Virus record (IMG/VR): IMGVR_UViG_3300042562_000315
Location: 1-48,358 of that record
Origin: a virus
Reading direction: 5' to 3' (one strand)
DNA: 48,358 nucleotides
This document shows, piece by piece, positions 11,461 to 48,358 of this stretch (within the stretch, counting starts at the first letter, position 1; every line of letters starts with the position of its first letter). A program made the translations under genes and the position numbers. The notes beneath the pieces were generated by a model. It saw only the letters and a program-made list of their open reading frames with translations. It made no database searches and had not been told where the DNA came from.

Positions 11461-13005
11461 ATGTCAGACGCTATAGTCAAGAATTTAAGTTTCGGAAAAG
11501 AAGCTAGTGATAAAGTATTTGCTGGAATAGAGAAATTATCTAGGGCAGTTAGTTCTACCTTAGGAGCAAGTGGTAAGTGTGTTCTTTTAGAAGATTCTTC
11601 TGGAAGACCAGTAATTACAAAAGATGGGGTTTCTGTCGCTGATTCTATTATTTTATTAGATCCAGTAGAAAACATGGGAGCAACACTTTTAAAAGAAGCA
11701 GCTAGGAAGACTGTTAGAGAAGCCGGAGACGGAACTACTACAGCAACTGTTTTAGCACATGCTATTTTAAAAAACGCTTATGCCATAGAAAATCCAAATG
11801 CTAGAAAGATAAAAGAAGGAATAAATAAAGCCGCTGATAAAGTTATAGAATATCTTGAAAAACACTCTATAGTTGTAGAAGGAGATATGTTAGATCAAAT
11901 AGCAACTATATCTACAAATAATGACGCTGAATTAGGTAAGATAGTAGGAGATGCTTTTAGGTCTGTAGGTAATACTGGAATTGTTATGATGGAAACATCT
12001 TCAGATCCAGAATGTAGTTTAGAAATAGTAGAAGGAGTACAATGTAACATGGGTTTAACTAACTCTCACTTTGTAACAAATCAAAAAAATAAAACAGCAG
12101 AACTAGATAATCCTTTGGTATTATTAGTAGAATCTCCAATACAATCTATTAGACAAATTCAATCTGTATTAGAGTATATTATAAAAAACAATAAATCATT
12201 GCTTATAATAGCAAACATGGAACAGGTAGTTCTAACTACATTAGCAATGAATAAGTCTAAAGGTAATTTAAAAGTAAACGTAATTAATGCACCTACTTTT
12301 GGAATAAACAGAAAAGAGACCTTTGATGATCTAGCGTTATTAACTAACGCAGTATTAATAAACGAAGACTTAGGCGATGATTTAGACTTAATACAACCAG
12401 AAATGTTAGGTACATGTATTAAGAGTATAACGAATCACGAAGAAACTATTCTTCACGTTGGAGATAGTTCTGAAGAGGTATTAGATATAATTAAAGATAT
12501 TAAAAAGTCTTTATTAGAAAATAATACAAGTCCACAAGTTATAAAATTAGAAAAAAGACTAGCACGTTTAACTGCTAAAATAGCCGTAGTTAAAGTTGGT
12601 GCTAATTCGGAAATAGAGTTAAAAGAAAAAGCAGATAGAATAGAAGACGCTATTTGTGCAACAAAAGCAGCTATTAAAGAAGGTATTGTTGCGGGTGGTG
12701 GAATTGCTTTGTTGAATGCATCTTATAACATAGATACTTTTTCAATTGGAGAAGAAATATTATTAGATTCTATCAGAGCACCTTTTAAAACTATACTAGA
12801 CAACGCTGGAATTGAAGACGCTCCTATAGAGATAATATCAAAAGTTGGGTATGGTCTCAATGTTATAACTGGAGAAACAGTTGACATGATTAAAGCAGGT
12901 ATAATCGATCCTTTACTAGTTACAAAAAGTGCTTTAAGAAACGCCGTTTCTGTAGCGACTACAATATTATCAACTGACTGTGTAATTAATAATTTAAGAG
13001 CATAA
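11461..13005 (+). CDS. groL: phage-encoded GroEL (group I chaperonin, 514 aa)
   Basis: The whole chaperonin architecture is present: equatorial, intermediate, apical, then intermediate and equatorial again. Key ATPase residues match E. coli GroEL by position: D55 in TKDGVSVA (D52), D90 in GDGTTTATVLA (D87) and D396 in IEDAI (D398), followed by EGIVAGGGIALL. The apical segment (about 190-375) is more divergent and lacks some aromatic substrate-contact residues. The C-terminus ends NNLRA without the GGM tail, and the protein is 34 residues shorter than E. coli GroEL. The stop overlaps the GroES start by one base. It probably folds virion or other phage proteins with the partner at 13005. It lies between lysis and virion genes, so host contamination is unlikely. 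Confidence 0.95.
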   Translation: MSDAIVKNLSFGKEASDKVFAGIEKLSRAVSSTLGASGKCVLLEDSSGRPVITKDGVSVADSIILLDPVENMGATLLKEAARKTVREAGDGTTTATVLAHAILKNAYAIENPNARKIKEGINKAADKVIEYLEKHSIVVEGDMLDQIATISTNNDAELGKIVGDAFRSVGNTGIVMMETSSDPECSLEIVEGVQCNMGLTNSHFVTNQKNKTAELDNPLVLLVESPIQSIRQIQSVLEYIIKNNKSLLIIANMEQVVLTTLAMNKSKGNLKVNVINAPTFGINRKETFDDLALLTNAVLINEDLGDDLDLIQPEMLGTCIKSITNHEETILHVGDSSEEVLDIIKDIKKSLLENNTSPQVIKLEKRLARLTAKIAVVKVGANSEIELKEKADRIEDAICATKAAIKEGIVAGGGIALLNASYNIDTFSIGEEILLDSIRAPFKTILDNAGIEDAPIEIISKVGYGLNVITGETVDMIKAGIIDPLLVTKSALRNAVSVATTILSTDCVINNLRA

Positions 13006-36144: not shown

Positions 36145-39100
36145 ATGGAAGACTTATATACTTTACCAGACGGATCAACAGTTGATATATCAAAATACTC
36201 TCAGTTACAGAGAATGCAGTTTTTATTAGACAATGAAGGAGCAAAAAAGTCAAAAGGCGGTGCAAAGAGTGCAGTTGTAACGCCAAGAAAAAACAAAGCA
36301 CTGACAAAAGATACGGATTCAAAATCGGTAAGTGGTACTTCAGCGCCTCAAAAATTTAGATTACCTACTATTGAAGAACTTCAGAAAAAAGGCGAAGCAC
36401 CGCCACCATCTGAATCTGCAAGTCCTAGTATAGTAGATGTAAGTAGATTATATAACATGGTTGGTAATACTGGTAATCAAGTAAACCAACAAAATTTTAA
36501 AACTGCTACTACTAAAGGTAGGAAAGAACAAAAAGTTGAAGGTTATTTTACAGCTGGATCAGGCGCTATCGATGACTTAGTAGAAAGCATCGACAATCCT
36601 GGTAACACAAAAAACAAAAGAAGAGATTTAAAATATAGTATAGACACTATTAAGAATAAAATACAATTAACTGATTCTAATTTATTGAATCCGTATTTAT
36701 ACTATTCTTCTAATAAGAAGGGCATTGATGATAGTTTTGTAGATAAAAACTATAGTTCTAAAGAGTTACAAGATATAGGTGTTAATCCAGATGATTTCGA
36801 TGGTTACTTAAATAAAAAAGGATATAAAGAAGACTTCCTAAAAAAAGAAGCACAAGGTTTATACGAAGGTACTGGTAACGCTGCATTTTCAAGATATAAT
36901 ATAGGTTTAGCCAAAGAACTTGCTAAAAAGAAAATGCTTAATATGTATATGGAAGATATGCAAGGAAGGGATTTTACTAAACAAGATCTTGATCAAGACT
37001 TAGAAATAGCTTTTGGTATGCGAGACAAGAAAGAAATAGTACGAAATGAAATATTCAATACTAATGGTATATCAAAATACGTAGAAAAAAACTTCCCTAT
37101 AGTAACTCAAAAGTTAAAAGATAGAGATATTGAAAATAAAAGAATATACGAAGAGTCTAAAAAAGGAGGAACTGATTTCTTTTCTTGGGACACACTTGGT
37201 AAAATGGGTAAATCTGGGTGGAACGCAGTATCTGATAGAACTAAGCAGATTAGTGCTACGGTTTATGACACTTTAGGAATGGATACTACCGCTGAAGGTA
37301 TTAGAGCTTTAGACGAAGAAAATAAATTTATAAGACCAGATGACAGAGGTATTGCCTATGCTTCTGGTAAATCTGTTTCATATAAAGGAACAAACTATTT
37401 AGTTGATTCTAAAGGAGAAATATATGACACGGATGCAAAGATAAGGGTTACTGATTTATTTGATGAATCTGAGTATAAAAACATAGTAGAAACATCTAAG
37501 TACGCTCCATCTGATTTCGTATTCAGTACTCAAGGCGCTGCAGTACAAACTTCAGGCGTAATGGCTGATATGCTAATACAGGCAGCTGTTACTCGTGGAA
37601 TTGGACAATTTGGCGCTATGGCAAGTGGAGCTAGACTAGCTTTAAATGGAGCTAGACAAACTAGTAGGTTCACATCTATATTAAATGATAGTTCTCAATT
37701 ATTAAAAAGAATACCACTTGATAGAGCTACTGGTTATTCTATGATAGCACAAGGTGCTTTAGGATATTCTCAAGGTTACGAGGATACATTAAAAGCAGCT
37801 AGAGATGCTGGGATAAATGATGAAGAAGCTTTTAAACTTGCTTCTACCAGCGCTCAAAGAATGGCTATTCTATATAGTACAACTGGTGCAATCAACCCGC
37901 AAACTAAATTAGTAGAAAATGTATTTGGTTCTAAAAATGTAATTAAAAAAGCTATAGATCAATACTTGAAAACAGGTGAAAAAGGATTTGTAGCTTATAT
38001 AGATGATATAATTAAAAGTACACCTAGAAACTTAGTTGAGTTCGCTGAAGAAGGTGGTAAAGAAGTTATTCAAGAGAATATACAACAGGCAGGTGAATTA
38101 GGAGTTAACAGACTTACTAATCAAGAAGCTGGTAAGAAGATAGTTAATGATGTAATGACAGGAGATGATTTCATGAATACATCGATACTTTCTTTTATAT
38201 CTTCTGGTTTGATTTCTAAAGCTAAAATACCTAGTTTTAGTTCTAATGATAATAATGTAGATAATTTAACTTCATTAAATACTTTAGCTAAAAATAAAAA
38301 AGAGTTTGTAAAAATAGTAGATGGATTAGTAGATCAAAAAGTGTTCACATTAGATCAAGTAAAAGCTTTGAAAGACGATGTGGATATTTATGATAATAAT
38401 GTAAATAAAATACCTAAATCAATATCTCCAGAAATAGCAATGCCTGTTATGAGGGAGTTAGATAAGGTTACTAAACTTCAAAATGAAAAAGAATCTGTAG
38501 ACAAAGCCTTTCACCCTAAGTTAGATGAAAAGATAAATCAAATTAGACAGAATATATTAGATATAGAGTATTCAAATGATTTAAAAATAAAAAACAAACA
38601 GATATTAAACGCTATAAATAAAGGTGTAGCTAAAGGTATTTCTACTAAAAGTTTTTCTACTACTGAAGAAGTTAATAATTACTTAATTAATGAAGTAGGT
38701 ATACCTGAAAAAGATGTCTCTATGTACAGTTCTCAAGGTGGATTTGCTTTAAGTTCTGCTGCATTAAAAAAATATTCTAAAGATCCAGATTCTATTCCAG
38801 AAAATACTCAATTAATAGTCATTAATGAATCTAAGAGTAGAGACGCAGGTGTAATACAACACGAATTTTTACACGGAGTACTTCAGAATACTTTAAAAGA
38901 AAATCCTGAAGCACAAAAACTAATAGGTAATGCTTTGGCTAAAGAATTGTTGAAAATAAATGATAACTTAAAGAAAAAAGGATTAGACGAAAGTGCTTTA
39001 CCCGTAGAGTATGCAAAAAGATTAGGTGCATATATGGAAAGAAACACTAACGACAAAGCTGAAGCGATTGCAAGGTATGAAATAAATATGCGTGAAGCTA

Positions 39101-42100
39101 GAAACAACCCATCTAAGATGGCAGAAATAAAAGCGAAGCATAATGATTATATGAGTGGATTAGATGGTGTTTTCTGGGAAGAAGCAATAGTTCTATATTC
39201 CGATGCTTTGAGACGTGGTTATGTAACTTATAATGAAAATACATTTACAAAACTTGGAGATACAATAAGAAGAGTTTTACAATACCTAGGTATAAAAGAT
39301 GTAAAATTTAATTCTGGTAAAGATGTTTATAATTTCTTAAAAGATTATAATAATAGCATTGAAACTGGAAATTGGGGTAAGGCATTGACTAAAATGAGTA
39401 ATAAAGGCGCTAGTATAGGTATAAAAAGCGATAAAGATGTTACAAAATCAAAACCATCAGCACCACAAAAGAAATTCTCTTTAAGTGAAAAAAAATCTGC
39501 AGATGAAATTAAAAAAGACGTAAATAAAAACTACAATAAAGATACTTTTACACAAAAAATAAATAGTGAAAGAGATCCTTCTTTATATGACATATTAAAA
39601 GAATATGAGTTTATAGTTAAAGGTAAAGCTAAATCACTGGGTTACGCAAACACACCTGACTATAGTGAGTTAGATATGATAATGGAAACTCAAATGGCTT
39701 TAATTCCTCATATTCGTAACTTTAATAAAGAATTTTTACAAAAAAGAGAAGAATATAAGCAAGAATTAATAAGTAAAGGTCTTGATCCTGACAGTAAAGA
39801 GTTTAAAGACAAAGTACAGACACAAGATGAAAAAGGTTATCAAGGTAAAAAAGGCATCGTAAAAGAAAATGACGACTTAAATGCTTGGATAAATTCTCAG
39901 TTAGGTAATAAAATGAAGGTTGCACTTAATACAGGTAACGTAACTACTCAAAAATTTACAGAAGATGTAGAAGGTGAAATGTTTAAAGAATCTAATATAT
40001 CTGACGGTTTTGGTGGTGATGAAGGTTATTTAATGGACGAAGGTGAAACTGTCTTTGAAGCACAACAAGACTTTGAACAAGAGCAAAATGCTTTAGCAGT
40101 TTTATTAAGTGATCCTGTATTTAGATTTACAGATGATAAAGGTAATTATATAGACATTGAAACAATACCTTTTGGCGCACTATATGTAACAGAAGCTACA
40201 GATCCTTCTGTTCCTGCTAATAAGAAATTAAAAACAGAAACTAATCTAGCAAAAATAAAAGAACTTAAAAAAGAGATAAGTGATTTAAGACGTGGTTTAG
40301 AACTAGAATCTAAAAAAGATATAACACCTGAAGAAAAACAAGAACTTAAAAACTTAAAGTCTTTTGATTCTTTTGATCTATCTACTGGTAATGTAATAAA
40401 AACATTTAAAGCTTTATCTACACAAGACACACCTGCTAAAATCGTTATAGATGATGTTGCTCGTGAAATATTATATTCTCCAAACATTGAGACTTTAGAG
40501 TTCCGTAATTTTAAAGAGAAGTTATCTGATTTGTCTAAGACAATGATGAAAAGAATGACTTTTGAAACAGGTGAAGGACTTGAATCTTTAATGTATAATG
40601 AATGGAAGTTATTATACGATGTTATTAATCACCCTATTGATGCTGTTACTGGGGAATCTAGTTATGCATCTAAGAAATTGCCTCCTAGATTAAAAGAATT
40701 TGATGATAAAGGTAATCTTAAGAAAATAGGTAATATAACTAGAGTTAAGTTCTTACAATCATTTTACGGAATAGAAGATGCTACTAGAATAATAAATAAG
40801 TTTGGTGGAAGTAATGCTGAATCAGAGATTTTACAGTTTGAAGATCCTGAAATGAATGATAAAACAGGTAATAAACTATGGCCAACCGCTTATTTTGATA
40901 GAAGAACAGCACTAAGAGAGTTATTTGGTGACGTAATGGTACTTCAAGAAGCTAGAAGACTAATACGTAACGAGGAATTTTTATCTAAAGTAGCTGAAAG
41001 AAATGTTAACTTATATAACAGTCTTAAAGATGATATTATTAGAGCAGAAGTTCTAAATAATATGGCTAAAGGTAAAAGTGATATAGTTAAATTTAGTTTA
41101 GCAGAAGAATCAAATGGTAAAATATCTGAATTTTTACAAGGATTAAACATAGGACAACAATGGGTTGTTGCTAGAGACATAGATAGAGCTATCTTAAATA
41201 GTAGATTATTAGTAGGAACACAACAAGACGTAGTAACTTTTAAAGTTCCTAGTAGATCTAAAATGTCTGATAAATCAACTGCTTATTTTATAATAAGTAA
41301 AGTTGCAGAAGGTTACAATAACTTTGAGTTCATGGTTGATAAGAATTCCAAAGGTCCTTTAACTAAACAGGTGTTAAATGCTGTTGATATTAAAAACAAA
41401 GATATATCTAAAACAAAACAAAATGCAATAGTTAAGTTTAGTCTAGAAGAAACAATGAATGATATAATAGAAGAAAATACTGGAGTAAAATCTTCTGAAA
41501 AATTCTCTCCTGAAACTGCTAAAAACATAGGTAAAAACATAGGTAAAAATGAATTCTATCTACCACCACAAGATGAGGATTTCTTAGGTTTAATATATAC
41601 ACTTGCTTCTGGTAAAGGCGCGATGGGAGAGGCTCAGTTAGATTTCTTTAAAGATAATTTATTAAAACCTTATAGTACTGCGATGCTTAATTTAATGAAA
41701 GCAAGACAGACTATGTATAAAGACTGGAAAGACTTAATAAAGAACAAACATAAAGGTATAACTAAGTTGTTGAAAGAAGATTCTGGATATGAAGGTTATA
41801 CTATAGATCAAGCTGTTAGGGTTTATCTTTGGAAAAATGCTAAATACGATATACCTGGATTAGATTCAAAAGACATGTTTAATTTGGTTCAATTAGTTAG
41901 AACTAATAAAAAACTAAGAGATTTTGCTACAGACGTTTCGTTATTATCTAAACAAGCTAATGGATATATAGAACCAGATAAGAATTGGGGTTTTGGTAGT
42001 GTTGTTGGAGATATAAACACTGTAATATCTAAGTCTAATAGAAAAAAATACTTAGAACAATGGCAGAACAATGTAGATAAGATATTCTCTAAAGATAACA

Positions 42101-43476
42101 TGAGTAAGATAGAAGCTGTTTATGGCAGACAATATGCTAGTGCTTTAAGGAATATGTTAGATAGAATGGAAAGTGGTACTAACAGACAGAAAGGTTCTAA
42201 TGATGAATTTTTAAACTGGTTAAATGGTGCTACAGCTGATGTAATGTGGTGGAACGTTCGTTCTGCTGCTCTACAAACATTAGGAGCTATAAACTATATA
42301 AATACTAGTGATAACAATATATTAAAAGCTAGTAAGGCATTTTTAAATATGCCTCAGTTTATAGAAGACTTCATGACTATATGGAGATCAGATTATTCTA
42401 AAGATAGAAGATCTGGACTTATGAATGACGTTGCTGAAGCTGAATTTGCTCAAATGATGAACGATCCAAGAAATAAAAGTCTTGGAGATAAGTTAAAAGC
42501 GGCTAACTATTATCTACTTAAAAACGGATTCAATGCTACTAGATTTATGGATAGTTTCGCTATTGCATTAGGTGGTGCTAGTTTCTATAGAAATAGATTA
42601 GATACATATAAAAAACAAGGTCTATCAGATGAAGAAGCTGAAACTAAAACAATGAGTGACTTCTATGATGTATCAGAACAGTCGCAACAATCAGCAGATG
42701 TTTCTAAAATATCTAAAAATCAAGCAAGTACTAGAGGTAGATTGCTATTAGCCTTCTTAAATACTCCTTTTCAATATTCAAGACTTATAAAGAAATCAGT
42801 AATTGATTTAGTTAAAGGAAGAGGAAGTGTTGTAAACAATGTTTCAAAGATAGTATATTATGGTGTAGTTCAAAACGTTATGTTTAACATGCTTCAAAAT
42901 GCTTTATTCACTAAGATATTTGGTGATGATGACGAAGAAGAACTTACTACTGCAGAAATGAGAACTATAAACGGTGCTTTAGATACAATATTAAGAGGTG
43001 CTGGTTTAACAGGAGTATTAATGTCTGTAGCTAAAAATGCTATAGTTAAATGGTATGAAAAAAGTGGTGATCCAAAAGGTTACGGTGATGTATTGTTAGA
43101 ACTAGCAAACGTTGCTCCTGCTATAGGAACTAAACTTAGATCAGTAGCTAAAGCATATAAAGCATTTGAATATAATAAAGACGAAATAATGTATAAAGGA
43201 TTTAGTCTTGATAATGAATATGCTATTGAAGCTCTTACTTCTTTAACTACGGCTAGATATAATATACCTTTAGATAGAATATATCAAAAATCACAGAATA
43301 TTATGGCTGCTTTAGATTCAGAAACAGAGAACTGGCAGAGAGTATTCTTATTGATGGGTTATAGCGCATGGAATTTAGGCATGGAAGATAAAGATGAAAA
43401 ACCAGAGACTAACGCTAGAAGTTTAAAAAAATCTAATCTAACAAGAGGAGGTTTGAAAAAACAAGGTTTAAGATAA
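36145..43476 (+). CDS. giant multidomain internal/ejection protein (2443 aa)
   Basis: The largest gene of the window lies at the end of the late operon, in the place of T7 gp16. An HExxH motif (HEFLHG, H906-H910) followed by WEE at 1011-1013 marks a metallopeptidase-like domain. The tetrapeptide KFSL recurs at 1110, 1649 and 1764, and a variant KFRL at 70, always at predicted domain borders. The C-terminal 300 residues contain hydrophobic and amphipathic helices suited to membrane insertion. I saw no RNA polymerase catalytic signature. It is probably ejected into the cell, with a peptidase domain acting on the envelope or on the protein itself. Confidence 0.8.
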   Translation: MEDLYTLPDGSTVDISKYSQLQRMQFLLDNEGAKKSKGGAKSAVVTPRKNKALTKDTDSKSVSGTSAPQKFRLPTIEELQKKGEAPPPSESASPSIVDVSRLYNMVGNTGNQVNQQNFKTATTKGRKEQKVEGYFTAGSGAIDDLVESIDNPGNTKNKRRDLKYSIDTIKNKIQLTDSNLLNPYLYYSSNKKGIDDSFVDKNYSSKELQDIGVNPDDFDGYLNKKGYKEDFLKKEAQGLYEGTGNAAFSRYNIGLAKELAKKKMLNMYMEDMQGRDFTKQDLDQDLEIAFGMRDKKEIVRNEIFNTNGISKYVEKNFPIVTQKLKDRDIENKRIYEESKKGGTDFFSWDTLGKMGKSGWNAVSDRTKQISATVYDTLGMDTTAEGIRALDEENKFIRPDDRGIAYASGKSVSYKGTNYLVDSKGEIYDTDAKIRVTDLFDESEYKNIVETSKYAPSDFVFSTQGAAVQTSGVMADMLIQAAVTRGIGQFGAMASGARLALNGARQTSRFTSILNDSSQLLKRIPLDRATGYSMIAQGALGYSQGYEDTLKAARDAGINDEEAFKLASTSAQRMAILYSTTGAINPQTKLVENVFGSKNVIKKAIDQYLKTGEKGFVAYIDDIIKSTPRNLVEFAEEGGKEVIQENIQQAGELGVNRLTNQEAGKKIVNDVMTGDDFMNTSILSFISSGLISKAKIPSFSSNDNNVDNLTSLNTLAKNKKEFVKIVDGLVDQKVFTLDQVKALKDDVDIYDNNVNKIPKSISPEIAMPVMRELDKVTKLQNEKESVDKAFHPKLDEKINQIRQNILDIEYSNDLKIKNKQILNAINKGVAKGISTKSFSTTEEVNNYLINEVGIPEKDVSMYSSQGGFALSSAALKKYSKDPDSIPENTQLIVINESKSRDAGVIQHEFLHGVLQNTLKENPEAQKLIGNALAKELLKINDNLKKKGLDESALPVEYAKRLGAYMERNTNDKAEAIARYEINMREARNNPSKMAEIKAKHNDYMSGLDGVFWEEAIVLYSDALRRGYVTYNENTFTKLGDTIRRVLQYLGIKDVKFNSGKDVYNFLKDYNNSIETGNWGKALTKMSNKGASIGIKSDKDVTKSKPSAPQKKFSLSEKKSADEIKKDVNKNYNKDTFTQKINSERDPSLYDILKEYEFIVKGKAKSLGYANTPDYSELDMIMETQMALIPHIRNFNKEFLQKREEYKQELISKGLDPDSKEFKDKVQTQDEKGYQGKKGIVKENDDLNAWINSQLGNKMKVALNTGNVTTQKFTEDVEGEMFKESNISDGFGGDEGYLMDEGETVFEAQQDFEQEQNALAVLLSDPVFRFTDDKGNYIDIETIPFGALYVTEATDPSVPANKKLKTETNLAKIKELKKEISDLRRGLELESKKDITPEEKQELKNLKSFDSFDLSTGNVIKTFKALSTQDTPAKIVIDDVAREILYSPNIETLEFRNFKEKLSDLSKTMMKRMTFETGEGLESLMYNEWKLLYDVINHPIDAVTGESSYASKKLPPRLKEFDDKGNLKKIGNITRVKFLQSFYGIEDATRIINKFGGSNAESEILQFEDPEMNDKTGNKLWPTAYFDRRTALRELFGDVMVLQEARRLIRNEEFLSKVAERNVNLYNSLKDDIIRAEVLNNMAKGKSDIVKFSLAEESNGKISEFLQGLNIGQQWVVARDIDRAILNSRLLVGTQQDVVTFKVPSRSKMSDKSTAYFIISKVAEGYNNFEFMVDKNSKGPLTKQVLNAVDIKNKDISKTKQNAIVKFSLEETMNDIIEENTGVKSSEKFSPETAKNIGKNIGKNEFYLPPQDEDFLGLIYTLASGKGAMGEAQLDFFKDNLLKPYSTAMLNLMKARQTMYKDWKDLIKNKHKGITKLLKEDSGYEGYTIDQAVRVYLWKNAKYDIPGLDSKDMFNLVQLVRTNKKLRDFATDVSLLSKQANGYIEPDKNWGFGSVVGDINTVISKSNRKKYLEQWQNNVDKIFSKDNMSKIEAVYGRQYASALRNMLDRMESGTNRQKGSNDEFLNWLNGATADVMWWNVRSAALQTLGAINYINTSDNNILKASKAFLNMPQFIEDFMTIWRSDYSKDRRSGLMNDVAEAEFAQMMNDPRNKSLGDKLKAANYYLLKNGFNATRFMDSFAIALGGASFYRNRLDTYKKQGLSDEEAETKTMSDFYDVSEQSQQSADVSKISKNQASTRGRLLLAFLNTPFQYSRLIKKSVIDLVKGRGSVVNNVSKIVYYGVVQNVMFNMLQNALFTKIFGDDDEEELTTAEMRTINGALDTILRGAGLTGVLMSVAKNAIVKWYEKSGDPKGYGDVLLELANVAPAIGTKLRSVAKAYKAFEYNKDEIMYKGFSLDNEYAIEALTSLTTARYNIPLDRIYQKSQNIMAALDSETENWQRVFLLMGYSAWNLGMEDKDEKPETNARSLKKSNLTRGGLKKQGLR

Positions 43477-43523
43477 TAGAAACAATATAAGATGAGCAAC
43501 ATACTCAAAGTTTCTATATAAGA

Positions 43524-43554
43524 AAAGGGGATCACAATTAAGTGTATCCCCTTT
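43524..43554. terminator. bidirectional terminator between convergent operons
   Basis: AAAGGGGAT pairs with ATCCCCTTT (9 bp) and the loop contains a further CAC/GTG pair; T-rich sequence follows on both strands (CTTTATTT on plus, TTCTTATA on minus). It lies 47 bases after the stop of the giant gene and 29 bases beyond the last minus-strand gene, so it can end both transcripts. Confidence 0.8.
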
Positions 43555-43565
43555 CTTTATTTAGT

Positions 43566-43575
43566 GTGTATAGCA
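43566..43575 (-). promoter_or_regulatory. third copy of TGCTATACAC motif
   Basis: On the minus strand TGCTATACAC occurs here, as in the upstream blocks of the early promoters (145-154 and 779-788). Here it lies after the end of all minus-strand genes, next to the terminator, where a promoter has nothing to transcribe. It may be a protein-binding, replication or packaging-related site, or a chance match of ten bases. Confidence 0.35.
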
Positions 43576-43583
43576 CTTATAAG

Positions 43584-43802
43584 TTATTCCGTTAATGGTT
43601 CAATATCAATAGGTGCGCTTTCTGGTTTTAATCTTTCAGTCATTAGTTTGATAGCATCGTCATAACTAGGCATTAGTTTTAAAGTTTGTAACGTTCCAGC
43701 GGCTAATGTTGTTAAATGCTGTTGTTCGTCCATTACTTGCTGTAGAACTCTAACTAAAGCTTCTACTTTATTTTTCATTTCAATTAAACTTTGTTCTTTC
43801 AT
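43584..43802 (-). CDS. small coiled-coil protein (72 aa)
   Basis: Residues 1-50 form a helical coiled coil (MKEQSLIEMKNKVEALVRVL) followed by an acidic tail. It is the last gene of the minus-strand operon and overlaps the preceding gene by four bases. No enzymatic motif is present. A small adaptor or regulator is possible, but the role is unknown. Confidence 0.65.
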   Translation of the reverse strand: MKEQSLIEMKNKVEALVRVLQQVMDEQQHLTTLAAGTLQTLKLMPSYDDAIKLMTERLKPESAPIDIEPLTE

Positions 43803-44014
43803 TTTTCTAATTCTTTAATAAGCTTTTTAATCAATTTAAACTCTCCGTGAGTAATTCCTATTGTTCTATCTGTATAATTACAAACGTTTATATCAAATCC
43901 TTCTCCATTATTCCATTCGGTTATTTCTACATAACCATGTTCTTTAGCTAAAAAATCATAATCTTTTAACGAAGAGAATATTGTTTTTCTATCGTATCTT
44001 TCTATTTCTTTCAT
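43799..44014 (-). CDS. small protein with WNNGEGFD segment (71 aa)
   Basis: Pattern VEITEWNNGEGFDINVCNYT and a C-terminal helix (HGEFKLIKKLIKELEK) suggest a small alpha/beta fold. The ATG overlaps the stop of the 44011-44163 gene (ATGA). I recall comparable small proteins in Bacteroidota phage early operons, without an assigned function. Confidence 0.65.
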   Translation of the reverse strand: MKEIERYDRKTIFSSLKDYDFLAKEHGYVEITEWNNGEGFDINVCNYTDRTIGITHGEFKLIKKLIKELEK

Positions 44015-44163
44015 TTGTCTATAGTAAATATAATATTTATGAATGGTAAATATAACACATGTGTATTGAATGTTTGTTCTTCATAGGTTCTAATTCCAAG
44101 CAGAATACCTGGATATGTGCCAATTGCTAATTCCCAACCTTTTTCATCATTGTTTAACGTCAT
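44011..44163 (-). CDS. 50-residue conserved-looking small protein
   Basis: An ATG-initiated frame encodes MTLNNDEKGWELAIGTYPGI, continues with LLGIRTYEEQTF and a hydrophobic end (VLYLPFINIIFTI). Both ends overlap neighbours tightly: its start lies inside the endonuclease gene's last 17 bases and its stop overlaps the next ATG as ATGA. That packing supports translation. Function unknown. Confidence 0.6.
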   Translation of the reverse strand: MTLNNDEKGWELAIGTYPGILLGIRTYEEQTFNTHVLYLPFINIIFTIDK

Positions 44164-44605
44164 CTTGTCTTTGTTTTAATATTAATCTAACGGTCTCATC
44201 ACAGTCTTTCTGCGATTGAGGTTTGTATAGTATTCTAGTGTCATTATTATTTGTCATCCAATCTTTAAACATTTTCCAGCGTAAAGGAAAAGAATCATTC
44301 GCTTTACCTTTTGTTTCTATTATAAAATCCCACCCAGTAAAATCTGGAGTATACTTTATATTGAGAACTTTTTTATTACCTCTATTCACGAAATCACCTT
44401 TACCATTTGATTGCCGTTCATAACAGTTATTACTAAACTGAAAAGCATGTAATAATTCAAAGTTCTCGCCTTCGTATCTAAAATCTATATTAGCATCTTT
44501 TAAAGCTTTATACATATACTTTTCCAAACCAGAAGCGAAGGTAATACCATTATATATTACCTTCTTTGAAACAACTGGTCCTTTTTTCCTACTTATCCTC
44601 TTCAT
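44147..44605 (-). CDS. T7 endonuclease I-like resolvase (152 aa)
   Basis: The PD-(D/E)XK active site is visible: E28 in ASGLEKYMYKAL, D88 in KYTPDF and E97-T-K99 in FIIETKG. The SGLE...YTPDF...ETKG order matches phage T7 endonuclease I, which cuts Holliday junctions and branched DNA before packaging. The length is close to T7 gp3 (149 aa). The gene starts by overlapping the stop of the MazG-like gene upstream. The basic N-terminus (KRISRKK) could contact DNA. Confidence 0.8.
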   Translation of the reverse strand: MKRISRKKGPVVSKKVIYNGITFASGLEKYMYKALKDANIDFRYEGENFELLHAFQFSNNCYERQSNGKGDFVNRGNKKVLNIKYTPDFTGWDFIIETKGKANDSFPLRWKMFKDWMTNNNDTRILYKPQSQKDCDETVRLILKQRQDDVKQ

Positions 44606-44976
44606 TAGTTACGATGACCATACTTTTCTTTTTTAGCGTCTACTAATTCGTAATTAACTTTAATATCACCGATAGAACTACTACATAAATTTTCTAAATA
44701 ACCAAAATCTAAAACTTCAGAATCGTCAAACTCTTTTATTAATGCTTCTTCTGTTAAATCTTGTATTTCTTCTCTACATGCTTGTATATAAAGAATTGCA
44801 TCCATTAACTCTTCTTGTACATCGTTTAAGTACTTAGCAAGACCTTTCATCTTTGTTGTACGTTCTTCATGTAATGTAGTTCCGTATTTAGCAAAACCAA
44901 TATCTGATCTTGATACAAACTTTTGCACTACTCTTTCTACTACAGGATCTCTAAAATCTATTGATACTTTATTCAT
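44605..44976 (-). CDS. MazG-like all-alpha NTP pyrophosphohydrolase-like protein (123 aa)
   Basis: Helices with the pattern VQKFVSRSDIGFAKYGTTLH and KYLNDVQEELMDAILYIQAC (EExxDA) resemble small MazG-type proteins in phages. The metal-binding Glu pair E56-E57 is seen, but the second ExxD is less clear. It lies between the endonuclease and the GIY-YIG/MazG fusion with single-base overlaps. Hydrolysis of non-canonical or host dNTPs is possible. Family placement is by pattern only. Confidence 0.6.
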   Translation of the reverse strand: MNKVSIDFRDPVVERVVQKFVSRSDIGFAKYGTTLHEERTTKMKGLAKYLNDVQEELMDAILYIQACREEIQDLTEEALIKEFDDSEVLDFGYLENLCSSSIGDIKVNYELVDAKKEKYGHRN

Positions 44977-45818
44977 TATAATGTTGTTATTAAAGGTTTA
45001 TTTTCTTTTACAAAAGTACCATTTACCATCTGACCATGTCTTGATTTAATTACGTCATAAGCTGATACAATACAGTCTTCAACTTTTAATCCCTCTAAGG
45101 CAGCTAGATTTGTCAATACAACCATCATATCGCCTATCGCATCAATAAATTCATCTTTATCATTCTTAAGAATAGATCTACTTAATTCACCAGCTTCTTC
45201 CATTAGTTTTACAAACTGAGTTTTAGTATCACCATTTCTGTATATGCCACGCTCATCAGCCCATTGTCTAATCAAGTCATATACATTAGGAACTTCAACT
45301 TCAACTTCTTCAGGTTGATTTTTATGTTCCATTGCTGGACTTTTCTTACCTAATGATTTACAATACTCATCCATTGCTTTATTATAAATAAATGAACGAG
45401 CTGGATTGTACATAGATGTTTTAGCGTTTTTAACTATCCAATCGCATAGGTCAGGCGTTAAAAGATATTTACCAAAAGAATTATCTAATTGAATACCTAA
45501 ACTATCCATTAAATTACCCTTTAACTTGTTTAGCGGATAAGGAAATGTAGTTGTTTGTTCTGTTACGTTTAATACCATTCGATTTAATTTTTTGTTTAAT
45601 TTATTAGTTATTAATTCTTTGTAAGATTGCCTATCTACTTTATAGCCAAATTTGTTTTGAAGTTCTATCTCTTTATTAGAGATGTAATCTATACATTCAC
45701 TTGAATCTAGAACTTCATATTCTTTATAACCATAACCTTGTTGTCTAGTTAATCTTTCCTTAAGATTACATGTAACTCCTATTTTTTTACCAAATATATG
45801 ATATAGATAGTATTTCAT
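44976..45818 (-). CDS. GIY-YIG nuclease-like / MazG fusion (280 aa)
   Basis: The N-terminal 60 residues resemble a GIY-YIG domain: YLYHI (4-8), KIGVTCNLKERL (12-23, R22), E50 and N55. The middle (65-175) is unassigned and partly charged. The C-terminal part carries the MazG signature E207-E208-xx-E211, then E223-xx-D226 and D230 in KLMEEAGELS and DEFIDAIGD. MazG hydrolyses NTPs or dNTPs to monophosphates; GIY-YIG domains nick DNA. Coupling the two in one protein is unusual. The MazG call is firm, the GIY-YIG call moderate. Confidence 0.7.
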   Translation of the reverse strand: MKYYLYHIFGKKIGVTCNLKERLTRQQGYGYKEYEVLDSSECIDYISNKEIELQNKFGYKVDRQSYKELITNKLNKKLNRMVLNVTEQTTTFPYPLNKLKGNLMDSLGIQLDNSFGKYLLTPDLCDWIVKNAKTSMYNPARSFIYNKAMDEYCKSLGKKSPAMEHKNQPEEVEVEVPNVYDLIRQWADERGIYRNGDTKTQFVKLMEEAGELSRSILKNDKDEFIDAIGDMMVVLTNLAALEGLKVEDCIVSAYDVIKSRHGQMVNGTFVKENKPLITTL

Positions 45819-45821
45819 AAT

Positions 45822-46001
45822 TTATTCTTTTACAATTACTTCTAAGTTAAAAGACTCTAAATCTACAATTAAACCAACAGGTTCTAAACCGTTTTCTATT
45901 AATTTATTAAAAAACTCTTTTAAATTGTTTCTTATAAAGTAACCACCTCTAGCATTATAATCACCGTCTTTCCAAAATTCTATTGTTTTTTTATCTTCCA
46001 T
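45822..46001 (-). CDS. 59-residue small protein
   Basis: An ATG-initiated frame encodes MEDKKTIEFWKDGDYNARGG and ends VDLESFNLEVIVKE. It starts inside the end of the 45980 gene (overlap of 22 bases) and stops three bases before the GIY-YIG/MazG gene, filling what would otherwise be a gap in the operon. Charged, soluble; function unknown. Confidence 0.6.
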   Translation of the reverse strand: MEDKKTIEFWKDGDYNARGGYFIRNNLKEFFNKLIENGLEPVGLIVDLESFNLEVIVKE

Positions 46002-46174
46002 AATTGTTTAATATTTTCTACTTCTTGTTTAACTTCATACCAGTATTTTGCTCCTGTTTCTTTTATTAATTGATTAACTGCTACCAAAGCGCATTGTTGT
46101 GCTTTTTCTTCATCCGCTATTATATCTCTATAGAATTTAAAGAATAAATGAAACGCTTGTTCTTTTGGTCTCAT
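45980..46174 (-). CDS. small helical protein (64 aa)
   Basis: The helices FKFYRDIIADEEKAQQCALV and KQEVENIKQLWKI are separated by a short turn; composition is Lys/Glu-rich. Similar small proteins occur in Bacteroidota phages (from memory). It overlaps the thymidylate synthase-like stop by four bases and the following gene by 22. Function unknown. Confidence 0.6.
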   Translation of the reverse strand: MRPKEQAFHLFFKFYRDIIADEEKAQQCALVAVNQLIKETGAKYWYEVKQEVENIKQLWKIKKQ

Positions 46175-46809
46175 AATTTGTCGTTGTATAAATGTAAATT
46201 ATGAGCAAAATGATAATATGTACCAATCTCTATTTGTAATATATGAGCAATATCAGCTTGTAAGTTTGAAAAACAGAATTGATCGTTACAGAAACCATAC
46301 CAAATATCATTAGAACGCATTAGAACGGCCATATTTAATTTACCGTCTAATATTGTAAACTGAATAGCATACGTACAAGGAGTGTCATTAGAATACGTAT
46401 CTATCTCTTTGCCATCATATATTGATATAGTTGCTTTTCTAGTGTTTGGATTGTCTTGAAGTAGTTTTATAACTTTACCTATTTGGTCGTTTCGTTTCCA
46501 CTGCCAACCATAATTAGATCTAACGTTTCCATTCTCGTCCATCATGTTTTTCCATATTGGAGCAAACTTTGATATTTCTTCTGCATTAGGATCACCAGAT
46601 AAATACCACATCCATTCTCTCATAGCATAGACTGGATTCCATTTCCTACTAAGATCTCTAATAGAATTGTCTGTTGGATTTTCTATGTAGAAACCTACGT
46701 TAAACAAAGCTTTAGTGTCGTCAAAATCAACTCCTTCTAAGATTATTTTGTCTAATAAATATCTGTAGGCTTCATCTGCATTTTTAAAACTATTTTTCAT
46801 ACTTGTCAT
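46171..46809 (-). CDS. thymidylate synthase-family enzyme, possibly dCMP-specific (212 aa)
   Basis: The catalytic cysteine C145 (NDTPCTYAIQF), R165-SND168 and H206-LY208 align one-to-one with C146, R166/D169 and H207/Y209 of E. coli ThyA. At the position of ThyA Asn177, which selects dUMP, this protein has D176 (YGFCND). Asp there is characteristic of dCMP hydroxymethylases such as T4 gp42. The N-terminal WMWYLSGD and YGWQWKR also match the family. The protein ends just after HLY, lacking about 50 C-terminal residues of ThyA, so activity cannot be assumed. ATG 46800 is an alternative start. Confidence 0.8.
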   Translation of the reverse strand: MTSMKNSFKNADEAYRYLLDKIILEGVDFDDTKALFNVGFYIENPTDNSIRDLSRKWNPVYAMREWMWYLSGDPNAEEISKFAPIWKNMMDENGNVRSNYGWQWKRNDQIGKVIKLLQDNPNTRKATISIYDGKEIDTYSNDTPCTYAIQFTILDGKLNMAVLMRSNDIWYGFCNDQFCFSNLQADIAHILQIEIGTYYHFAHNLHLYNDKL

Positions 46810-47035
46810 AATAATATGTGTAATACTTGAATATTTGTTTCCATATTTCGTTTTTTTTGTATGTAACTGGACTTATACTTATCTTTTTATTCATATCGAT
46901 ACATATAAACCATTCTATTAAAGATTTAGCTTGTGGTGATATATAAATGCCATTATTGACACACCAAACATGTGCTTTTCTTTCTTTATCAGAAGGAAGA
47001 TAATCTCCCATGTCTACACCTTTTTTAACCGCCAC
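46790..47035 (-). CDS. small protein of unknown function (81 aa)
   Basis: The N-terminus is Lys/Asp-rich, followed by WCVNNGIYISPQAKSLIEWF and a Tyr/Lys-rich helical end (KQIFKYYTYYYDKYEK). It overlaps the thymidylate synthase-like gene by 20 bases and adjoins the primase-helicase stop. The repeated aromatics suggest a small folded or nucleic-acid-binding protein; no domain is recognised. Confidence 0.55.
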   Translation of the reverse strand: MAVKKGVDMGDYLPSDKERKAHVWCVNNGIYISPQAKSLIEWFICIDMNKKISISPVTYKKNEIWKQIFKYYTYYYDKYEK

Positions 47036-48358
47036 TTAGTCCCAAGGCATTTTATCATCACTAGTGTCTAATGGTTCATGAGGTATAAAACAACCAGAAC
47101 GTGGTTCCCATTTAAAATGCGCTTCTGCTCCGTTCTCACCGAGGTTTTGAAACTTTACTTTAAGTACTTTACATTTAACTGTTTTATCTTCATAATTCCT
47201 ATGAACTAATAAACCATGATACGAAGCATCATACCATTCACCACCACCTTTTATATTATACATAGTAGGTTCTTCTATTTTACCTTCTCTATCTTTATAC
47301 ATTTTAGTTGGGTGAGCAACTACGATAACTAATACATCATACTTTTTAGCAAAGACTTCTATCTGTTGTAGATATTCTAACGTATAAACATTTACATCTC
47401 CAGAAGCATCTGTTGCTCTAACCTTATTAAATGGATCTATAACAAGACATTTAATACCTTTACGTTTAACCAACTCAGCACCTTTTCTAAGAACAGACTC
47501 TAACGTATAACGTTCCATGTCTATAAAGAAATAACTACTATTAACATGCGTTGCTATTTGATTCCACTTTTCTCCGTGTATATCTTCTGCTGAAGGCATA
47601 TCGCCCCAGGTTTTACGCATTAGTTTATGAGCATGTAAATAAGTAGGTTGATTCTCTGGTGAAGCAAATGCTGTTTTCCAACCATACTTACCATTGTAAC
47701 CTACAACCATTTGGTCAACAAAATCAGACTTACCACTGCTAGGTATACCAGTAACGGTAATAAACTGACCCGTATAAGTAGAAAATATGCTATCAAAGTT
47801 ATCGAGTCCGACTTGAAACCCAGGTTTGAAACCATTTCTAACAAAATCCGTGACTTCATCTTCAATGTCACGGAATGTAGTAACATTTTCCAGCGGAACA
47901 GGTTTAGATCTTGATATTCTTTGTGATAATGCTTCTTTTCCATATTTAATTAAGTATTCGTTTGCGTCTTTACAATCATCGAAAGTTGCAATATAACAAG
48001 TTTCTGATCCTAGTCGTCTAACTAGTTCTGTCTGTAAGGCTTGCCCAGCAGCGTCTGAATCAACTGCAATAATGATTTTTGATTTGTCTTCAAAGTAATC
48101 AATACAATTATCTAAGTACTCGAGATTGTTTGTGCCTAAGGTTGCACCATTAGGAACAGATATTGCATTAGTAATCCCTGCTTCGTGTAATGCTAATACG
48201 TCCATTTCGCCTTCAACAATAACACAATATTCAAAACCTACAATGCTGTTAATATTATAGAATACTTTTTCAGCTCCTTTGAATAATTTAAAGTGTTTAT
48301 GCCCGTCTCTGTATTTTACATTGATAAGTTGATCGCCAATAAAATAATTAAAGTGTAT
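47036..48358 (-). CDS. primase-helicase, 5' end outside the window
   Basis: The reading frame is open to the window edge, giving about 440 residues. A TOPRIM domain shows EYCVIVEGEMDVLAL and AVDSDAAG; upstream of it INVKYRDGHKHFKL fits the primase core. The helicase part has Walker A TGIPSSGKSDF, Walker B KCLVIDPFN and an H-motif VVAHPTK. This is the T7 gp4/Twinkle type of bifunctional primase-DnaB helicase. The M at 48205 lies inside the TOPRIM motif and is not the true start. It leads the minus-strand replication operon as far as this window shows. Confidence 0.9.
   Translation of the reverse strand: MHFNYFIGDQLINVKYRDGHKHFKLFKGAEKVFYNINSIVGFEYCVIVEGEMDVLALHEAGITNAISVPNGATLGTNNLEYLDNCIDYFEDKSKIIIAVDSDAAGQALQTELVRRLGSETCYIATFDDCKDANEYLIKYGKEALSQRISRSKPVPLENVTTFRDIEDEVTDFVRNGFKPGFQVGLDNFDSIFSTYTGQFITVTGIPSSGKSDFVDQMVVGYNGKYGWKTAFASPENQPTYLHAHKLMRKTWGDMPSAEDIHGEKWNQIATHVNSSYFFIDMERYTLESVLRKGAELVKRKGIKCLVIDPFNKVRATDASGDVNVYTLEYLQQIEVFAKKYDVLVIVVAHPTKMYKDREGKIEEPTMYNIKGGGEWYDASYHGLLVHRNYEDKTVKCKVLKVKFQNLGENGAEAHFKWEPRSGCFIPHEPLDTSDDKMPWD

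Follow-up and report, generated by a model that had tools for sequence, protein, structure and literature searches.

The window analysed here is a stretch of 48,358 nucleotides of viral DNA (IMG/VR record IMGVR_UViG_3300042562_000315, positions 1 to 48,358). A minus-strand gene at 46171-46809 encodes a protein of 212 residues with the thymidylate synthase (ThyA) fold and without the C-terminal tail of that fold, predicted here to be a folate-dependent dCMP 5-hydroxymethylase. The preliminary description had placed a ThyA-superfamily enzyme at this position, and this was borne out by the open reading frame (ORF) call and by matches to PF00303 (E = 4.8e-27, Pfam) and PHROG 160 (E = 1.6e-42). The codons of Asp142, Cys145 and Asp176 lie at 46384-46386, 46375-46377 and 46282-46284, respectively.

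Neighbouring genes and the MazG-type pyrophosphatase

The enzyme gene stands in a minus-strand run, flanked by Toprim primase/helicase and DUF1064 nuclease genes. Upstream are an ORF of 81 residues (46790-47035), whose family was found in 66 loci, and a Toprim primase/DnaB-type helicase gene (47036-48358) that runs off the end of the window (PF13155 E = 7.7e-15, PF03796 E = 1.7e-8, PHROG 239 E = 2.9e-75). Downstream, the start of a 64-residue ORF (45980-46174) overlaps the stop of the enzyme gene; this ORF had no Pfam or PHROG match. An ORF of 59 residues (45822-46001) lies between the enzyme gene and a gene for a MazG/PRA-PH all-alpha NTP pyrophosphatase (44976-45818; PF03819 E = 2.6e-6, PF01503 E = 8.6e-6). 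The run continues with a conserved ORF of 123 residues (44605-44976; 60 loci) and a DUF1064 nuclease-like protein (44147-44605; PF06356 E = 3.2e-7; 57 loci), all on the minus strand. The N-terminal extension of the MazG protein weakly resembles GIY-YIG/MUG113 domains (PF13455 E = 0.046, below the cut-off) and is kept in 12 aligned relatives.

Ribonucleotide reductase genes were observed downstream of the enzyme run in relatives (L174:126-1994, L080:10374-12155, L077:12279-13289); no ORF of ribonucleotide reductase size is present at 43476-44147 of the window. The plus-strand gene block closes with a single ORF of 2443 residues (36145-43476), of a family found in 32 clustered sources.

ORFs of the window and 80 loci were clustered. 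The enzyme ORF was countable in 80 cases, L020 being left out because the enzyme runs off the end of that locus. The MazG family was found in 79 of these 80 and was always on the same strand as the enzyme; in the one exception (L078) the locus ends soon after the enzyme gene. The gap between the two genes in the 79 loci had a median of 2 bases and a maximum of 1253. An ExxE/ExxD motif was located by a simple motif search in 60 of the 72 MazG ORFs of at least 180 residues. PF03819 was detected in 41 of 42 enzyme-bearing records vs 2 of 42 ThyA-type records, each set being 42 of the 80 fetched and made up of related phages, so that the rows are not independent.

The association does not extend to dCMP hydroxymethylases in general. 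PF03819 was absent from all 10 cultured records searched, including those of Bacteroides phage BF503P2, Agathobaculum phage AB434P2 and Enterococcus phage VPE25, whose ThyA-type enzymes bear an Asp at the position of E. coli ThyA Asn177, and a general partnership was therefore ruled out beyond the clade of the window. The elemovirus record MT497065 carries an annotated PRA-PH gene and no PF00303, so the presence of a pyrophosphatase is by itself no sign of modified cytosine. In the MetaGPA study, PRA-PH is described as turning up together with thymidylate synthase domains, and often only in contigs with the modification (PMC8670742).

Active-site residues of the enzyme family

The main residue set comprised 81 rows: the protein of the window plus 80 relatives retrieved from viral contigs. 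A ThyA-type control set was fetched with E. coli ThyA, and 49 phage loci were examined of the 80 fetched. The reference alignment contained the window family, E. coli ThyA, T4 gp42, SPO1 gp29, Vi01 and other phage proteins; E. coli numbering is marked Ec below.

The catalytic Cys and the phosphate- and ribose-binding residues had been described as matching E. coli ThyA one-to-one with an offset of one. In the alignment this offset held for C145, R165, S166, D168, D176, H206 and Y208 (Ec C146, R166, S167, D169, N177, H207 and Y209) and failed for the remaining phosphate ligands: Ec R21 is replaced by Thr and has no counterpart, and Ec R126/R127 correspond to R124/K125, offset by two. K125 stands for Ec R127 and T4 gp42 Arg124, a column that holds Gln in 38, His in 28 and Lys in 15 rows of the family.

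The replacement of Asn177 by D176 was confirmed. Asp was present in this column (Asp177 hereafter) in 81 of 81 rows vs Asn in 49 of 49 ThyA-type loci, which shows that it is not a chance substitution. The catalytic Cys (Ec 146) and a Thr in the Ec 147 column were also found in 81/81 rows, and the controls carried L143, C146, H147 and N177 in every examined locus. According to the MetaGPA study, positions 177 and 147 are those most tied to cytosine-modified contigs in the ThyA family (PMC8670742).

The hydroxymethylation signature given in the T4 structure paper consists of an Asp three residues before the catalytic Cys (Cys-3) and a Ser-x-Tyr motif (PMC6400193). Both elements were kept in 81/81 rows, as D142 and as the Ser at Tyr-2 in S98-N99-Y100 of the window enzyme; the corresponding residues of E. 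coli ThyA are Leu and Pro. The folate-handling residues Ec E58, W80 and D169 (E65, W86 and D168) were each retained in 81/81, as were Gly in the Ec G173 column and Tyr in the Ec 209 column. Only 4-14 residues follow Y209 in the 81 rows, vs 55 in ThyA and 28 in the T4 dCMP hydroxymethylase. By its Asp at 177, Thr at 147, Asp at Cys-3 and missing C-terminal tail, the window family departs from thymidylate synthase.

If the change from Asn to Asp were neutral, the protein could be a standard thymidylate synthase or a dUMP hydroxymethylase. Both are of the same superfamily, and SPO1 gp29, annotated as a dUMP hydroxymethylase, also has Asp at Cys-3. However, Asp177 and Thr147 are invariant in the 81 rows, L143/H147/N177 are equally constant in the controls, and neither SPO1 gp29 nor Vi01, which we take to be a dUMP hydroxymethylase, has Asp in the 177 column; a phage in the same hit group as Vi01 bears that annotation. 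A dUMP-type enzyme is thus considered extremely unlikely. The pattern of SPO1 gp29 indicates that the two features are separable, with the Cys-3 Asp going with hydroxymethylation and Asp177 with cytosine.

A dCMP 5-methylase, which would yield 5-methyl-dCMP, was also weighed. The change N177D alone converts thymidylate synthase to a dCMP methylase, according to mutants cited in PMC8670742. Thymidylate synthase seals its active site through the C-terminal tail and hydrophobic residues, as described in PMC6400193. The window family lacks the tail and has Asp at Cys-3, and the window enzyme has Met in the Ec W83 column, all of which speak against methylation; this alternative is highly improbable, ranking between the dUMP-type enzyme and the 5-hydroxylase considered below.

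The sugar of the substrate was assessed by residue proxy only. MilA, the CMP hydroxymethylase of Streptomyces (PDB 5jnh, 5b6d), carries, like the window enzyme, Asp and Thr in columns 177 and 147, and it was the top match in both sequence and structure, as would be expected if the enzyme acted on the ribonucleotide CMP. Its sugar-choice positions Lys133 and Ala176 align with R124 and S166, and Arg and Ser were found there in 81/81 rows. The double swap K133R+A176S in MilA itself gives dCMP preference, as published. The MilA chain is also longer (342 residues in 5jnh). A CMP hydroxymethylase is the least probable of the four alternatives.

Predicted structure, phylogeny and named relatives

The 212-residue enzyme was modelled with AlphaFold2 at a mean pLDDT of 91.1, the short C-terminus included. 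A fold search with this model returned MilA as the best match (Z 24.9, 1.6 Å over 208 residues), followed at the same level by 9iqc, a flavin-dependent dCMP monooxygenase (Z 24.6, 2.1 Å over 209 residues), and by 9iqu (Z 23.9, 2.0 Å over 199 residues). The T4 dCMP hydroxymethylase scored below MilA and 9iqc (Z 20.4, 2.4 Å over 196 residues). This tie of MilA and 9iqc above the T4 enzyme counts against the hydroxymethylase reading.

The match to 9iqc and 9iqu raises the alternative that the window enzyme is a flavin-dependent dCMP 5-hydroxylase of the Mosigvirus type, producing 5-hydroxycytosine. Mosigvirus makes 5-hydroxy-dCMP with an enzyme of the thymidylate synthase superfamily, described as homologous to the hydroxymethylase (PMC13390438), and a Mosigvirus protein is almost the same as the crystallised one (536 bits over 238 residues). 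The Mosigvirus/Kanagawavirus synthases (9iqc, 9iqu; flavin-dependent according to the PDB title) share with the window family the ThyA fold, Asp177, Thr147, Cys146 and a comparable size (238 vs 212 residues), with dCMP as their substrate. In contrast, the folate residues kept in the window enzyme are lost in the two reference hydroxylases compared, which carry Phe, Ala, Asn and Val at Ec 58, 80, 169 and 173 where the window family has Glu, Trp, Asp and Gly in 81/81 rows. At 209, Cys-3 and Tyr-2 the hydroxylases further have Phe, Glu and Thr, against Tyr, Asp and Ser in 81/81. With the profile of the window family, the 5-hydroxylase scored 58.8 bits, below MilA (94.2), the T4 enzyme (84.6) and E. 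coli ThyA (74.5). A 5-hydroxylase is accordingly judged very unlikely, and is placed first among the alternatives.

The Mosigvirus and Kanagawavirus synthase genes adjoin an annotated peptidase gene, of the U32 family in the Kanagawavirus record (L189:1-245 and 523-1239; L190:1-308 and 541-1239). The small gene between synthase and peptidase is annotated as chorismate mutase in the Kanagawavirus record.

Asp at this position had been taken earlier to mark dCMP hydroxymethylases. This stands for dCMP as the substrate and not for the product, as the 5-hydroxy-dCMP synthases and MilA share the Asp. The fold search and the Mosigvirus comparison led to Asp177 being dropped as sufficient evidence: the Mosigvirus protein also has Cys146, Thr147 and Asp177, so Asp177 marks dCMP as substrate without fixing what happens to it. 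On its own it cannot separate the outcomes methyl-dU, hydroxymethyl-dU, hydroxymethyl-dC and hydroxy-dC; at the level of predicted function from residues, the wider set tells these four ThyA-fold outcomes apart.

The hydroxymethylation signature, the folate residues, the MilA positions and the short C-terminus all point to a folate-dependent deoxycytidylate 5-hydroxymethylase as the product of 46171-46809, with a probability of roughly 0.86. The suggestion that such an enzyme would make 5-hydroxymethyl-dCMP gains support from the signature together with E58, W80, D169 and G173 in 81/81 rows.

In a phylogenetic tree, from which MilA was left out, the window family and gene 42 of BF503P2 formed a group (87/83) separate from both the ThyA clade and the 5-hydroxylases. 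The comparison with T4 gp42 and ThyA proposed in the preliminary description therefore sets the family apart from ThyA; with its weak deep forks and adjoining long branches, the tree speaks neither for nor against an origin from T4 gp42.

T4 gp42 (PDB 1b49, 6a9a) has in common with the window enzyme Asp177, Thr147, the Asp at Cys-3, Ser-x-Tyr, E58/W80/D169 and the lack of the thymidylate synthase tail, at 24-25% identity in structure alignment. It differs in its longer C-terminus, in its Arg124, where the window family has Lys, Gln or His, and in its neighbour gene, gp56 in T4 and MazG in the window. The nearest cultured relative is gene 42 of BF503P2 (WAX07047.1; 45.1% identity over the whole length), which is annotated as a deoxycytidylate 5-hydroxymethyltransferase and has the signature residues of the window family. 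Its neighbours are a carbamoyltransferase, an AAA_28 kinase-like gene, a second ThyA paralogue and a dUTPase, with no PF03819.

The second ThyA paralogue of BF503P2 (L082:17127-17933) is also annotated as a deoxycytidylate 5-hydroxymethyltransferase. It keeps the Cys, Thr147, Asp169 and Asp177, but Ec E58, W80 and G173 are replaced by Leu, Tyr and Leu, so this paralogue may not use folate.

Proposed cytosine modification in the phage clade

On established chemistry, Cys145 of the proposed hydroxymethylase would attack C6 of dCMP, with Asp176 recognising and protonating the cytosine. A one-carbon unit would be supplied by methylene-tetrahydrofolate, and water activated by Asp142 would then attack the exocyclic methylene, yielding 5-hydroxymethyl-dCMP. 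Lacking the thymidylate synthase tail, the active site would not be sealed for hydride transfer.

MazG, PRA-PH and the all-alpha dUTPases belong to one superfamily. T4 gp56, the annotated dCTPase, matched dUTPase_2 (E = 2e-5) and weakly PRA-PH (E = 0.019, under the cut-off). From its context, the neighbouring MazG-type pyrophosphatase probably clears dCTP, the task of gp56 in T4, and modified cytosine would then outcompete cytosine in replication. The step from 5-hydroxymethyl-dCMP to the triphosphate may be carried out by host kinases, as the gene context would suggest. A T4-type dNMP kinase (DNMK) that would account for the route to the triphosphate was found in none of 28 records of the window clade, which counts against the reading. 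PF13521 matched BF503P2 and, weakly, a single record of the clade within an unusually long reading frame; the latter match was not counted.

Genes for decorating hydroxymethylcytosine occur near Asp177 enzymes in cultured phages. The carbamoyltransferase near gene 42 of BF503P2 (L082:14657-16492), annotated as hypothetical, matched PF16861 (E = 3.4e-34) and PF02543 (E = 2.4e-13); such a carbamoyltransferase was shown in the MetaGPA study to make 5-carbamoyloxymethylcytosine from 5hmC (PMC8670742). In VPE25, the Asp177 protein and a beta-glucosyltransferase of the T4 type (PF09198 E = 8.6e-62) lie two genes apart. Both cases count for the hydroxymethylase reading.

In AB434P2 (L083:1314-4500), the protein annotated as a deoxyuridylate hydroxymethyltransferase carries Asp177 together with the Cys-3 Asp and the Tyr-2 Ser, which makes dCMP its likelier substrate. 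Genes next to it, among them one for a cytidylyltransferase-like protein (PF01467 E = 2.1e-11) and one whose product weakly resembles choline kinase, possibly make up a hypermodification cassette.

No carbamoyltransferase, GT1, GT2 or T4-type beta-glucosyltransferase (PF16861, PF00534, PF00535, PF09198) was found in the 28 window-clade records, nor any match to PF21448. A Pfam scan of 75 of the 80 called ORFs of a 66-kb relative (G002), five including the largest being omitted, likewise returned no decorating enzyme. IMG/VR classes the clade records as linear and they are often fragments, so this absence is weak. In these records the clade thus offers no gene of its own that requires hmC, a point against the reading, and plain 5hmC is the simplest prediction and best guess for its DNA.

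The preliminary description had suggested that the phage DNA could carry modified cytosine and so evade restriction. The gene context and the association of Asp177 with modified contigs in the MetaGPA study (PMC8670742) lend support to this suggestion of modified cytosine.

The window encodes a TerL-like protein of 740 residues that matched 87 phage records. Of these, 68 are of Flavobacterium phages (elemoviruses where listed), 15 of Cellulophaga, 2 of Tenacibaculum and 1 of Maribacter phages, and the remaining one is of an environmental podovirus (64.8%). PF00303 and PF03819 were found in none of the 7 of these records that were searched, so the enzyme-bearing clade appears, as far as these searches go, to be uncultured and related to flavobacterial podoviruses. 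Among genome contigs, 4 loci lie in metagenome bins labelled Flavobacteriaceae, Aliivibrio (2) and Verrucomicrobiales; the bins may be contaminated and no host was drawn from these labels. A GroEL-type chaperonin is encoded at 11461-13005 (PF00118 E = 1.4e-53) and is also annotated in a related elemovirus and in Manatee Spring podovirus.

Literature searches returned no report on a dCMP hydroxymethylase of a Bacteroidetes phage, on a hydroxymethylase with MazG and hydroxymethylcytosine, linking Flavobacterium phage, thymidylate synthase and hydroxymethyl, or on a dCMP hydroxylase. The enzyme is of a known kind; what is added here is a set of residues that argues against 5-hydroxylation, together with the extent of the uncultured clade and a MazG neighbour specific to it. 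A tentative picture, somewhat doubtful on balance, is that this aquatic-phage clade has a pared-down form of cytosine replacement, in which a tail-less dCMP hydroxymethylase would be paired with a dedicated MazG-type dCTPase bearing a GIY-YIG-like fusion, with neither a T4-type kinase nor the transferases sought; the DNA would contain undecorated 5hmC or be decorated by an enzyme not recognised here.

Public annotations name several proteins of this kind thymidylate synthase or deoxyuridylate hydroxymethyltransferase, among them those of VPE25 and AB434P2. 5-Hydroxymethylcytosine in phage DNA is a known means of escaping bacterial restriction enzymes. As the gene context suggests, much of the cytosine in this phage DNA may be 5-hydroxymethylcytosine, which would make it resistant to many restriction enzymes. 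If true, this would bear on restriction escape, on the modification-dependent restriction of the hosts and on metagenomic and deamination-based sequencing, and many contigs of a large and little-studied group of aquatic phages would be predicted to hold modified cytosine.
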